Shown piece after piece: positions 3,293 to 6,495 of a stretch of 20,517 nt of DNA (the first letter of the stretch is position 1; each line of letters starts with the position of its first letter). Location: positions 1 to 20,517 of the IMG/VR virus record IMGVR_UViG_3300012920_000363, one strand, 5' to 3'. The notes beneath the pieces are model-generated. The model searched no databases, was not told the DNA's origin, and saw only the letters and a program-made list of their open reading frames with translations. Origin of the DNA: a virus. The position numbers and the translations under genes were made by a program.

Positions 3293-3565
3293 ATGGAAGA
3301 ATTAGAAGAAGAAAAACAAAGGCCGAATATTGTTGCAACTTTCGTTCAACTTATCGTTCTTGGTTGGTCTTTGGCCGTCATTTCTTGGTCATACTACAAC
3401 CCTAATCCCGTCAGGCAAATTGATACGACCTTTGCCGCAGGCTTGCTTTCGGGCGTCCTTACGCAATTTGGGGTTGACTTGAAAAGTAAGAATAATGACA
3501 AAAAAAAGTTACAGGGTAAAGTTAATATAGTAGACAATAAAAACTCGAAAGTAGGTATCAAATGA
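3293..3565 (+). CDS. Small membrane protein with two hydrophobic segments, holin candidate
   Basis: The 90-aa protein has a short acidic N-terminus, a hydrophobic segment at about 15-34 (IVATFVQLIVLGWSLAVISW), a turn containing NPNPVRQ, and a second, weaker hydrophobic segment at about 46-62 (TFAAGLLSGVLTQFGV). The Lys-rich hydrophilic tail begins KSKNNDKKK. Small size, two short membrane segments and a charged tail are the usual appearance of class II holins, which make holes in the inner membrane at lysis. No endolysin is next to it, so the call rests on topology alone; it could equally be a membrane partner of the exported proteins that follow. AAAGG lies seven bases before the ATG. It overlaps the next gene by ATGA. 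Confidence 0.6.
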   Translation: MEELEEEKQRPNIVATFVQLIVLGWSLAVISWSYYNPNPVRQIDTTFAAGLLSGVLTQFGVDLKSKNNDKKKLQGKVNIVDNKNSKVGIK

Positions 3566-4071
3566 AAAAATTACTTCCTATTTTATTTTTGCTTCCTTTG
3601 CCATTGCAGGCGGGCTATGTCCACAAAATAACGGCATCGGCTCAGGGTGTTGTTGATGGTAGCTATTCGCAGGCAAAACGGATTGGTTCAACCTATTCAA
3701 TGAGTTCGACAGGAATTACCGCGGGAACAATGGGGCATTTAGATTCGCCCGCATTAGACAATAGTTCAGTATTGACAGGCGTGGCCGCTACACACGGAAC
3801 AGGGTCTTACACCCAAACTACAGCCGGCGCCGCAACAAGTTTTTCAGAATCATTTATTCAAGGGGATGCGGTAGTAACAACAGCAAGTGTTTCTTCTGGC
3901 GTTGTTTCTTCTTTACCAGTAACAGGCGACACAATCACATATTCAGGCGGGTCTAGTTCAGGACAATCAATAGGTATAACTTCAGTTGCAGGCGGAACTA
4001 TAACATTAAGCCCCGGTGCGGCGGGTTCAAGCGTAACAGGTTCAATTACAAGTTCAATCGAAATCGAATAA
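3562..4071 (+). CDS. Exported Ser/Thr/Gly-rich protein A
   Basis: The first 18 residues (MKKLLPILFLLPLPLQAG) form a clear signal peptide with a likely cut after QAG or QA. The mature part is low in charge and rich in Ser, Thr, Gly and Ala, with alternating polar and hydrophobic residues that suggest beta structure. Examples are SQAKRIGSTYSMSSTGITAG and, near the end, VTGDTITYSGGSSSGQSIGI. It shares the motif AGAAT-F-ES-I with the next gene product, so the two are probably related. There are no Cys in the mature part. It is the first of three signal-peptide genes joined by ATGA or TAATG overlaps. I recall similar exported proteins in marine phages without known function; a surface or periplasmic role in the infected cell, or a virion role, are both possible. 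Confidence 0.75.
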   Translation: MKKLLPILFLLPLPLQAGYVHKITASAQGVVDGSYSQAKRIGSTYSMSSTGITAGTMGHLDSPALDNSSVLTGVAATHGTGSYTQTTAGAATSFSESFIQGDAVVTTASVSSGVVSSLPVTGDTITYSGGSSSGQSIGITSVAGGTITLSPGAAGSSVTGSITSSIEIE

Positions 4072-4508
4072 TGCGGCGCTTATTTATAAGCCTTTTTTTA
4101 TTAACCAGTTCGCCCTGTTTTGCTATTCCTGTTATTCCAAATTTTTCAGCCGGAAGTTCTATATCTCGAACGACCAGTTCTCAAAGTACGCGAGAAATTA
4201 TTCAGTCATATTCTTATTCTACGGGGTATCAATATACATCTGGGGGTTCTAACATCGAAGCGGTCACGGCAGGCGGTACAATCAGCCCTGAAGCGATTGC
4301 AGGGGCAACACAAACAATTAACGGCGTAACATCAACAACAACAGGAATTAATTTGACTACAAAACCACAATGGAAGCAATCAACGGCAGGGGCGGCAACG
4401 CAATTTCACGAATCGTATATTGGGCCGGGGCTAAATTCTTATGTCCATATAGATCGCACCATTGAAGTCCAATCTGTAACTGAATCAACGTCCACGTTTA
4501 CGCAATGA
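4071..4508 (+). CDS. Exported Ser/Thr-rich protein B
   Basis: MRRLFISLFLLTSSPCFAIP is a signal peptide with a probable cut after CFA. The mature part of about 126 residues is Ser/Thr/Gly-rich and beta-like, beginning IPVIPNFSAGSSISRTTSSQ. The segment STAGAATQFHESYIGPG matches TTAGAATSFSESFIQGD of the preceding protein, so these look like diverged paralogues or share one domain. The C-terminal part (YVHIDRTIEVQSVTESTSTF) also ends in beta-like sequence. The start codon shares its A with the upstream TAA, and the stop overlaps the next ATG, so all three exported proteins are probably made together. The function is unknown. Confidence 0.75.
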   Translation: MRRLFISLFLLTSSPCFAIPVIPNFSAGSSISRTTSSQSTREIIQSYSYSTGYQYTSGGSNIEAVTAGGTISPEAIAGATQTINGVTSTTTGINLTTKPQWKQSTAGAATQFHESYIGPGLNSYVHIDRTIEVQSVTESTSTFTQ

Positions 4509-5215
4509 TAAAAAAATTTAAAATAGCAGGCGCAATATTATTTTTTTCTGTTCAGTTTCCAAGTTACGCTAATACCAATATGACAAATAATCCAGTATCA
4601 AATTCTAGTGGTTCGGTCACAAATTTAGGGGTAATGAATATGCCGACAAGACAATTTCAAAATCAAGTCGGATTAAATACAGTTGTCTGTCAATCTGATA
4701 CTTTAGTCATCCAACCTTTTGTAACTTCATCGGCTTCATTTACAAAACCTTATCAAGATTTTTATCTTGACCCCATATATTCAGTAAAGGATACTGAAGG
4801 CGCGACAGATGCAAACGGCGTAACGATAGGCGATGGCGACCCCGACAACCCCGGCCAAATAATCGGATATAAAACAATAAGAACAGCGCAAAAAGATACA
4901 TATAATATTTCGCCGGGAATCAGTTTATCTTGGAATATTTCACTAGATCGAAAAGCGGTGCGGTTATGCCGCGAAGCGCAACAAAGACAATCAGATTTAA
5001 TTCAGGCAAGATTAAATGACAATATGTATGCGCTAGAACTCGGACGTTTAAAAACGTGCGGCGAACTTTTATCAAAGGGTTATAATTTCAAAAAATCGTC
5101 AAAATATTATAAATTATGCGAAGATGTCCAATTGACAAATCCAAGTAATACTTTGATTAATCATCAACATTCTTTGAAAGAAGTTTCTGTTTCTTCAAAC
5201 GAGAAGAAGAACTAA
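4505..5215 (+). CDS. Exported four-cysteine protein, cyanophage-conserved type
   Basis: A Lys-rich start and hydrophobic stretch (MIKKFKIAGAILFFSVQFPS, cut after YA) give a signal peptide. The mature protein has NSSGSVTNLG near 33, a Cys at 62, and an Asp-rich loop DGDPDNPGQII at 110-120 that might bind calcium. Then come TIRTAQKDTYNISPGISLSW and LDRKAVRLCREAQQRQ, a helical stretch of about 150-190, KTCGELL and YKLCEDVQLTNP. The four Cys (62, 155, 185, 205) fit two disulfides in an exported protein. From memory, T4-like cyanophages encode proteins with the same order of blocks: SSGSVTNQ, DNPG, RTGQKD, GIS, PLDR, a LCK/CE helix, NCGEL, and CADVVL-NP. I know no established function. It overlaps the convergent gene at 5157-5885 by 59 bases. 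Confidence 0.75.
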   Translation: MIKKFKIAGAILFFSVQFPSYANTNMTNNPVSNSSGSVTNLGVMNMPTRQFQNQVGLNTVVCQSDTLVIQPFVTSSASFTKPYQDFYLDPIYSVKDTEGATDANGVTIGDGDPDNPGQIIGYKTIRTAQKDTYNISPGISLSWNISLDRKAVRLCREAQQRQSDLIQARLNDNMYALELGRLKTCGELLSKGYNFKKSSKYYKLCEDVQLTNPSNTLINHQHSLKEVSVSSNEKKN

Positions 5216-5885
5216 ATTTTGTACCTGACTTTTTGCCAATAAGTTTTTTTGCACGATTTATTATCTGTTTGAATATTGGCTTAAGAAGTCTAGTCAAAAA
5301 AGGCGTAGCAGTTGCGGCGGATGTTGCGACAATTGTTACCACTAGGGTCGTGGCGACCACAGATGACGATGGAAGGTATTTATCGACAAAATCAGTTTTC
5401 GCCCATATCTCAACACATTTTCCGTCTATCACTTCAAAACCGACAACCTTTTCTTGCGCTTCTGCATTTCTTACATCGTTTAGCCTGAATTGTTGGTCTT
5501 TCGCAGGGCAATCAATTTCTTTTTCTTCGATTACATTATTATCATTATTTTCTTTTGTTTTTGGAATATCTGGCGTTTTTACTTCTGGTATTTCTGGCGC
5601 TTCTGTTTTGGTGTTCTGTTTCGGTGTAATTATTTTTGCTGATGGCGAATAATCAGGCGCAAAATAAAATGGCGCCGTGTGATCGCATAAAGCAACATTT
5701 CCATCGGGGTCGTTGTTGAAATGATCTTTACCACCCGTCAGAGAATCGCGTACAACAGCGCAAGGTGCATCAATGACAGGAACGCCCATATCAATAGAAA
5801 CAGGCGTATCAAGGACGATAGGCGGTTCAATATGGATAGGTTCTGGAATATGTATGTTCGGAATATTTATTTCTGGTATTTCCAT
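5157..5885 (-). CDS. Proline-rich membrane-anchored protein, marine-phage type
   Basis: The N-terminal 40 residues repeat an I/V-P pattern (EIPEINIPNIHIPEPIHIEP), suggesting an extended rod. A middle part carries four Cys (42, 67, 126, 157) and a second Pro/Glu-rich linker (about 93-112). A single hydrophobic segment at about 174-197 (SSSVVATTLVVTIVATSAAT) is followed by a strongly basic tail with IFKQIINRAKKLIGKK. The Cys and the positive-inside rule suggest an outside N-terminus and cytoplasmic C-terminus, although no signal peptide is present. T4-like cyanophages carry proteins of the same design (IP-rich start, Ala/Thr/Val-rich membrane segment, Lys-rich end), as I recall, near exported proteins like those at 3562-5215. 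The ATG directly follows nine T with no Shine-Dalgarno sequence. The function is unknown. Confidence 0.7.
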   Translation of the reverse strand: MEIPEINIPNIHIPEPIHIEPPIVLDTPVSIDMGVPVIDAPCAVVRDSLTGGKDHFNNDPDGNVALCDHTAPFYFAPDYSPSAKIITPKQNTKTEAPEIPEVKTPDIPKTKENNDNNVIEEKEIDCPAKDQQFRLNDVRNAEAQEKVVGFEVIDGKCVEIWAKTDFVDKYLPSSSVVATTLVVTIVATSAATATPFLTRLLKPIFKQIINRAKKLIGKKSGTKFSSSSRLKKQKLLSKNVDD

Positions 5886-5913
5886 AAAAAAAAAGGGTTA
5901 TTTATTAGACCCT
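5886..5913 (-). terminator. Weak hairpin plus T-tract running into a start codon
   Basis: In the leftward direction AGGGT (5913-5909), a 10-base loop and ACCCT (5898-5894) form a 5-bp stem followed by an uninterrupted T-tract to 5886. The stem begins at the stop codon of the gene at 5912-6109, and the T-tract touches the ATG of the next gene. It looks like an intrinsic terminator, though the stem is short. It may partly insulate the downstream gene or regulate it by readthrough. Confidence 0.5.
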
Positions 5914-6109
5914 ATCTACATATCCAGACATCGCCATTTTCATATCTAACGCCGCGATATTCAACTTTTCCTCTTGGTTTTCTAAGTAAAAATCTTGTTC
6001 TTTCGTTTCCTTTATGTGTAAAAGTTTCTTGCTCTAAAAGAATCCATGTCATATTGTTCATTCTTCTTGTATCAACTTTACAAGTCTCGAAAGTGATTGT
6101 CTTAGTCAT
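5912..6109 (-). CDS. Hypothetical 65-aa basic beta-rich protein
   Basis: The small protein alternates charged and hydrophobic residues in short strands (KTITFETCKV, MTWILLEQETF, TRFLLRKPRGKVEYRG) and ends VRYENGDVWICR. There is no signal peptide or membrane segment. It is a confident gene because it has a textbook promoter (TTGACA, 17 bases, TATAAT at 6138-6166) and AAGGA seven bases before the ATG. A weak terminator sits at its stop codon, so it can be a short single-gene unit. The strong host-type promoter suggests early expression by host RNA polymerase. Early expressed phage proteins of this size often interfere with host functions, but that is inference. I do not recognise the family. 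Confidence 0.75.
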   Translation of the reverse strand: MTKTITFETCKVDTRRMNNMTWILLEQETFTHKGNERTRFLLRKPRGKVEYRGVRYENGDVWICR

Positions 6110-6137
6110 TTTGGTTTCCTTGGTTTCTTACATTCCA

Positions 6138-6166
6138 ATTATAATATAATTAAATAAGGTTGTCAA
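6138..6166 (-). promoter_or_regulatory. Perfect consensus sigma70 promoter
   Basis: Reading leftward, TTGACA (6166-6161) is followed by exactly 17 bases and TATAAT (6143-6138). All 12 consensus positions match. Transcription should begin near 6131, about 20 bases before the ATG at 6109. The promoter fills the gap between the genes ending at 6171 and starting at 6109. Confidence 0.88.
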
Positions 6167-6170
6167 CCAT

Positions 6171-6368
6171 TTAAAATGGAATTACGTTGCCTGTTGATTT
6201 TGGTAGTTTTGGAACTTCTGGTAAAGTTATTTTATCAATAACTTGTTGAATCATTTTTTCTTTAAAATCATCACTCGTAACCATCATGTAGCCGTAAACC
6301 CCTGCGCCCAACATTGACGCGCTGATGATAAAACTTAAAATAGATAATATCTGTGAAATACGAGCCAT
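6171..6368 (-). CDS. Small membrane protein ending in PF
   Basis: The 65-aa protein has one hydrophobic segment near its start (ILSILSFIISASMLGAGVYG, about 7-28), then a charged helix (SDDFKEKMIQQVIDKI) and a Pro-rich tail (LPEVPKLPKSTGNVIPF). I recall small cyanophage membrane proteins with the same plan: membrane segment, charged amphipathic helix and a tail ending TGP-IPF or similar. This fits the other cyanophage-like genes around it. Its ATG overlaps in antisense the ATG of a + strand ORF at 6367. No clear ribosome binding site precedes it. The role is unknown; membrane localisation is a confident inference. Confidence 0.65.
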   Translation of the reverse strand: MARISQILSILSFIISASMLGAGVYGYMMVTSDDFKEKMIQQVIDKITLPEVPKLPKSTGNVIPF

Positions 6369-6495
6369 GATTCGAGAAGCATTTTTGAAAGCATTAGTGC
6401 CTGTTACAATTATAACCTTCTGCGGAATCTGTGCATTGGCGCCATTATATGTAACTCTTGGAATGATGACAAGACAAATAGAAAAGGTAAATTAG
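6367..6495 (+). CDS. 42-aa membrane mini-protein
   Basis: Translation gives a basic start MIREAFLKAL, a single membrane segment (VPVTIITFCGICALAPLYVT) and a polar end MMTRQIEKVN. The ORF fills nearly exactly the gap between two leftward genes. Its start codon overlaps the antisense ATG of the gene at 6171-6368 (shared CATG), and its stop overlaps the end of the gene at 6492-6671 by four bases. A clean positive-membrane-polar layout in an otherwise empty gap supports it. Against it are the lack of a good ribosome binding site and of a visible rightward promoter. If real it belongs with the neighbouring small membrane proteins. Confidence 0.5.
   Translation: MIREAFLKALVPVTIITFCGICALAPLYVTLGMMTRQIEKVN

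Follow-up and report, generated by a model that had tools for sequence, protein, structure and literature searches.

The window analysed here, a stretch of viral DNA of 20,517 nucleotides (IMG/VR record IMGVR_UViG_3300012920_000363, positions 1 to 20,517), carries at positions 3293-6495 a set of six conserved genes in the arrangement P1>P2>P3>P4> <P5<P6, together with an upstream gene, P0, and a conserved open reading frame (ORF) of 42 amino acids (aa). Judged from sequence and genomic context, this cassette is probably a host-lysis module of the phages of marine picocyanobacteria, or the membrane and outer-envelope part of such a module. This reading was adopted because endolysin genes neighbour the set in related loci, because the set takes the position of the T7 lysis locus in podoviruses, and because its presence and that of a known endolysin are nearly exclusive. 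The window represents part of a siphovirus genome close to those of the Prochlorococcus phages MED4-117 and P-HS2; its tail genes M, L, K and J are lambda-like.

Infection by cyanophages is fatal to a large share of Prochlorococcus and Synechococcus, and lysis genes had previously gone unidentified in most phages of these commonest photosynthetic bacteria of the ocean. If the lysis reading is true, tests can be aimed directly at the short gene list P0-P6, hundreds of "hypothetical" annotations receive a role, the "plasmid stability" label, which misleads, can be given up, and marine surveys gain a marker for how infected cells open.

Endolysin neighbours and the T7 lysis slot

A gene for a C39-peptidase homologue was found in 36 related loci, in all of them divergent, just upstream of P1 and 1.3-2.3 kb from P4; it was present in 28 of the 48 loci with enough upstream sequence. 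Four of the 36 loci (L090, L094, L101 and L119) lie in contigs that also carry a lambda-J-like tail gene. At least one of these C39 proteins, that of L079, starts with a hydrophobic segment, which would be typical of signal-arrest-release endolysins. In the window and in P-HS2 the upstream position is occupied by P0, and no C39 gene was found there.

The same peptidase family was found in S-PM2, a cassette-free phage in which genes for a C39 peptidase and a GH24 lysozyme stand together with one for an RlpA-like exported protein. Relatives of the S-PM2 C39 protein were detected in 106 phage records, several of them annotated as endolysin, and across S-PM2-type phages members of the C39 family are either fused with the GH24 lysozyme or encoded next to it, a single open frame spanning both domains in S-CREM1 and ACG-2014f. 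The "72-aa lysin" of S-PM2 proved to be a truncated annotation: the GH24 domain is found in full at 116286-116696, after the C39 gene (NC_006820.1, 115534-118229, L162). A mere loss of the set in S-PM2 was rejected in favour of its substitution by the endolysin and the RlpA-like exported protein. Both systems meet in the freshwater lake phage DSL-LC03, which carries C39, GH24, an outer-membrane autotransporter-like gene, P1 and P5, followed by P6, P4, P3 and P2 on the other strand. The autotransporter-annotated protein of this phage (549 aa, L174 2074-3720), encoded between the endolysins and the cassette, gave no Pfam match.

Near-exclusivity was observed in a table of 21 complete genomes, a chosen set uncorrected for ancestry. 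The eight endolysin-bearing myoviruses had C39 in 8/8 and GH24 in 7/8, whereas the 11 cassette-bearing isolates of all morphotypes had neither (C39 0/11, GH24 0/11) but had P4 in 11/11; DUF6450, the domain of P1, was likewise present in all 11 cassette genomes. Seven of the eight endolysin-bearing Kyanoviridae lacked an intact P4, which was clear only in DSL-LC03, and S-CAM7 gave a weak P4 match containing a stop codon. The association reached a Fisher p of 0.005 over 14 myoviruses, with kinship ignored. In 36 loci and in DSL-LC03 the S-PM2-type endolysin is thus represented beside the cassette by a C39 homologue; it is absent from the window and from the 11 cassette-bearing isolates. A T7-type amidase was absent from all cyanophages tested, including these 11, while the T7 control was positive. 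None of the endolysin families tested was found in cassette-bearing isolates, among them the model phages P-SSP7 and Syn9.

Two genomes were inspected for other candidates. In the complete P-HS2, the only transmembrane (TM) proteins outside the cassette were the tape measure and a tail-assembly protein, apart from a false hit in TerL, and no endolysin was detected by Pfam among the 50 other proteins. The pattern was the same in P-SCSP1d, where the only transglycosylase-like domain lies in a non-cassette protein that is probably an internal virion protein. For phages such as P-HS2 and P-SCSP1d, no candidate for crossing the host envelope was found other than the cassette.

The genomic position of the set points in the same direction. 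The T7-like podoviruses P-SSP7, NATL2A-133, P-SSP6 and P-SCSP1d carry the core P5-P1-P3-P4-P0 (in P-SCSP1d the gene in the P3 slot fell below the profile threshold and was assigned by position and by eye; for P-SSP6, P0 was identified by eye and no gene is annotated in the P3 slot), and in all four this core lies between the tail-fibre and terminase genes. The same slot of T7 contains the holin gene 17.5, the small terminase subunit gene (TerS) 18 and the spanin genes 18.5 and 18.7. The podovirus sets are therefore placed at the 17.5-18.5 slot of T7, and the siphovirus sets follow the tail-fibre genes, both being lysis positions of the genome. The likeness to the T7 lysis genes (17.5, a class II holin; 18.5/18.7; and 3.5, an amidase) extends to the presence of small TM and envelope-facing proteins but not to sequence, in which no similarity was found; furthermore, the set has three secreted proteins and no amidase, whereas T7 has an inner-membrane/lipoprotein spanin pair. 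P0 homologues were found in P-SSP7, NATL2A-133, P-SCSP1d, P-HS2 and Syn5 (gp48). The last of these lacks P1-P5 and retains P0 in the same slot, beside gp47, which is TM/coiled-coil-like. Syn5 also has an early gene for an exported protein, gp14 (L159 3667-4116), which weakly resembles M76 metallopeptidases (E 0.001) and is possibly a periplasmic protease.

Protein features, a possible mechanism and its rivals

P1 has one strong TM segment (residues 13-31) and a charged tail, and its homologue of P-SSP7 is recorded with two TM segments (TMHMM). Its size and TM layout are holin-like, with no match to any holin family in PHROG or Pfam. A crude signal-peptide test was passed by 90/117 homologues of P2, 77/124 of P3 and 95/135 of P4, the pass rate of control starts at interior methionines being 0-6%. 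TM segments were located at residues 176-194 of P5 and 7-25 of P6. By sequence, P1, P5 and P6 are accordingly proteins of the inner membrane, and P2-P4 are exported through Sec. Four cysteines are invariant in 57/57 P4 sequences, which also have an Asp/Gly-rich loop and a 42-residue C-terminal helix, and four are kept in 58-59 of 59 P5 homologues; such paired invariant cysteines would suit an oxidising compartment. P2 and P3 belong to families that are paralogous to each other (96% probability in hhalign).

The structural models were of limited help. The AlphaFold model of P3 (predicted local distance difference test, pLDDT, 82.8; predicted template modelling score, pTM, 0.45) shows a hairpin of two strands of ~24 residues, and the model of P4 was poor (pLDDT 69, pTM 0.38). 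Only weak matches were returned for both models by Foldseek/VIA, and a search of PDB sequences with the P2-P5 profiles gave nothing credible. The fold matches of P3 were to beta-hairpin pores, ring collars and phage tail knobs, the best with a Z of 4.2 over 42 residues. Lysenin, aerolysin, iota/CDTb and the FlgH L-ring dominate them, sharing with the P3 model the long two-stranded hairpin but no sequence similarity, so that the likeness is one of shape only. That P3 forms a pore would be a guess.

The tail-knob matches could also be taken as a sign that the products decorate the virion or act as accessory proteins of the tail tip, as the original prediction had considered for the whole set, and the siphoviral P6 and P5 do follow the tail-fibre genes in the same orientation. 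However, P2-P4 are encoded on the strand opposite to the tail genes, the set is common to unrelated tail types, and the Sec signals of P2-P4 and the TM segments of P1, P5 and P6 are unsuited to assembly in the cytoplasm. A role in the virion is consequently very unlikely.

Under the lysis reading, the set works like, or belongs to, a lysis module, for which the roles of the single proteins may be inferred from their sequences. P1 would accumulate in the inner membrane and trigger like a holin, with P0 and P6 tuning it as regulators. The exported P2-P4 would wait in the periplasm or the outer membrane, P4 probably carrying disulphide bonds and P2/P3 forming oligomers out of long hairpins. P5 would span to the inner membrane and, with P2-P4, open or link the outer envelope, a task done by spanins in coliphages. 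The C39 peptidase encoded beside the set would cut the peptidoglycan, and in the C39-free window and isolates checked, the wall would be broken by an unrecognised phage or host hydrolase. A broader scheme is possible, though short of an even chance: all three morphotypes of marine cyanophages would share a lysis system of unfamiliar proteins in which several Sec-exported phage proteins assemble in the periplasm or outer membrane and replace spanins, many of the genomes, relatives of the present one among them, having no recognisable endolysin.

Several observations weigh against the lysis assignment. A canonical holin-endolysin-spanin cassette comprises an endolysin and a TM/lipoprotein spanin pair, whereas the window set has neither: the only peptidoglycan-hydrolase-like domain found in the window is that of an NlpC/P60 tail protein, no lipobox was seen by inspection in the proteins of the set, and no spanin family match nor significant similarity to known holins was obtained in PHROG or Pfam. 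A canonical cassette would be incomplete here because the window has no endolysin, and for this reason and the lack of a lipoprotein the set was not filed under that family. The topology of P5 is ambiguous, since none of its 127 homologues passed the crude signal-peptide test. The idea of P3 as a transmembrane beta-barrel found no support, the hydrophobic alternation of its strands not being significant (p 0.34 and 0.27), and its fold matches remain at low Z. The exclusivity table is small, selected and uncorrected for ancestry. Finally, the myovirus sets adjoin replication genes and not late structural genes.

This last point, together with the export signals and membrane proteins, would also fit superinfection exclusion or envelope remodelling, in which the exported proteins, by coating or blocking the outer membrane or periplasm, prevent injection by other phages or prolong the survival of the infected cell, and a common host would explain the sharing of the set among unrelated phages. 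This is the main rival to lysis, although an unlikely one: known exclusion systems mostly consist of one or two small proteins, and exclusion leaves unexplained the endolysin neighbour, the DSL-LC03 cluster, the T7 lysis slot and the near-exclusivity with the endolysin.

Distribution and descent of the set

Judged by its homologues, the set spans all three tailed morphotypes. A P4 homologue is encoded in 421 phage records, of which nearly all are from cyanophages; this bears out the likeness to proteins of T4-like cyanophages stated in the original prediction. Its claim of a multi-gene set common to a siphovirus-like genome and T4-like myoviruses also held, the genes being conserved as neighbours in myoviruses and siphoviruses and, additionally, in podoviruses, and the envelope it proposed as a site of action agrees with the present reading. 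The siphoviruses with the set are MED4-117 and P-HS2. In the myovirus Syn9 the order is gp167-gp166-gp165, then the convergent gp164, gp163, gp162 and gp161, and it is similar in P-SSM2 and P-SSM4. Among 135 IMG/VR loci the order P1>P2>P3>P4>P5<P6< was the commonest, being complete in 60, and a P0 homologue was present in 62. The set occurred both in contigs with lambda-J-like tails (siphoviruses) and in contigs with T4 gp23 (myoviruses); T7 RNA polymerase, used as the podovirus marker, had no match among the viral contigs and was uninformative on podoviruses. Matches of the P0-P6 products to PHROG families (E 1e-9 to 1e-59; no function assigned except the "plasmid stability" label of P6) and the recurrent gene order in the 135 loci indicate that the gene set is not due to chance.

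In the P4 tree, 12/12 siphoviral sequences fell in one group (98/98) and the podoviruses in another (100/99). P4 thus appears to group by morphotype, transfers between phage types having probably been few and old, and a rampant mobility of the set was rejected on this ground. The transferable nature of the system, as proposed in the original prediction, is therefore weakly supported. A scan of host genomes gave P4 matches in no more than nine contigs, most of them short and from unrelated metagenome-assembled genomes (MAGs) or a single cell; these contigs look like phage sequence, and a host origin of P4 was rejected. The MAG and single-amplified-genome contigs (L176-L184) are labelled Bacteroidetes, Euryarchaeota and others, and may be mis-binned phage or infected cells.

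The gene cluster itself had been described in 2010 for cyanomyoviruses: T4-GC 218, 219, 234, 235 and 237 with a plasmid stability protein, called "hypothetical" and missing only from S-PM2 among 16 cyanomyoviruses, for which a functional clustering was proposed and mobility through the plasmid stability protein suggested (Sullivan et al., 2010; PMC3037559). The window has the same gene families and order, with homologues of GC218, 234, 235 and 237 together and the "plasmid stability" protein (P6) alongside. It differs in being a siphovirus genome, in having P0 and the 42-aa ORF, and in lacking a match to GC219, which occurred in 26/135 loci. In the parts of the 2010 account available, no function is assigned, in agreement with the original prediction, which had not noted the described cluster; those parts also mention no copies in podoviruses or siphoviruses, no endolysins beside the set and no part of it in lysis. 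A literature search, incomplete for key papers, found no published cyanophage lysis function for the set. What is new here is the context bearing on function: the T7 slot, the C39 neighbours, DSL-LC03 and the near-exclusivity.

A mobile or selfish cassette maintained by a plasmid-stability function, following the 2010 hypothesis, would account for the annotation of P6 and for the different locations of the set among phages. Nevertheless, P6 and its relatives are single-TM proteins of 65-87 aa with no supported Pfam match, no recombinase or endonuclease lies within the set, and the grouping of P4 by phage type points to vertical descent with few transfers; selfish maintenance is hardly to be expected. 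"Plasmid stability" is a PHROG label only; on the phrog_568 relatives of many cyanophages it looks like a misannotation passed on from record to record, and it has already been used for functional claims (PMC9602691).

Gene layout in the window

All the ORFs of the cassette were found as originally described, with the overlapping junctions, the convergent Pro-rich P5 with its four cysteines and the IPF end of P6. Of the three first genes predicted to encode signal-peptide proteins, the 3293 product (P1) is membrane-anchored instead, while export-like signals were confirmed for P2-P4. The conserved unit reaches upstream to P0 (3068-3289, minus strand), a small amphipathic protein of 73 aa divergent from P1 (phrog_2738/402, E 5e-21).

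The plus-strand genes are P1 (3293-3565), the DUF6450 small membrane protein of 90 aa (Pfam PF20048, E 2e-11; T4-GC218, Syn9 gp161); P2 (3562-4071), a secreted Ser/Thr/Gly-rich protein of 169 aa (phrog_564, E 5e-28; T4-GC237, Syn9 gp167); P3 (4071-4508), a secreted DUF6322 protein of 145 aa (PF19847, E 2e-27; T4-GC236, Syn9 gp166); and P4 (4505-5215), a secreted protein of 236 aa (phrog_848, E 9e-59; T4-GC235, Syn9 gp165). The P1/P2/P3/P4 junctions are start/stop overlaps of the ATGA/TAATG type. On the minus strand, P5 (5157-5885) encodes a protein of 242 aa with a C-terminal TM segment and a basic amphipathic tail (phrog_570, E 1e-34; T4-GC234, Syn9 gp164), and P6 (6171-6368) the small single-TM protein of 65 aa (phrog_568, E 2e-9; T4-GC414, Syn9 gp162). 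Between them lies a further minus-strand ORF of 65 aa (5912-6109), with no confident family and of uncertain membership in the set. The convergent 3' ends of P4 and P5 overlap in antisense by 59 bp (5157-5215), and these ends also overlap or abut in Syn9, P-SSM2 and many contigs.

The 42-aa membrane ORF (6367-6495, plus strand), which overlaps the start of P6 on the other strand, was found by tblastn to be conserved in siphoviral relatives and is 77% identical in P-HS2 and MED4-117. Since it was stop-free in 50/50 matches in related loci, it was considered a real unannotated small gene.

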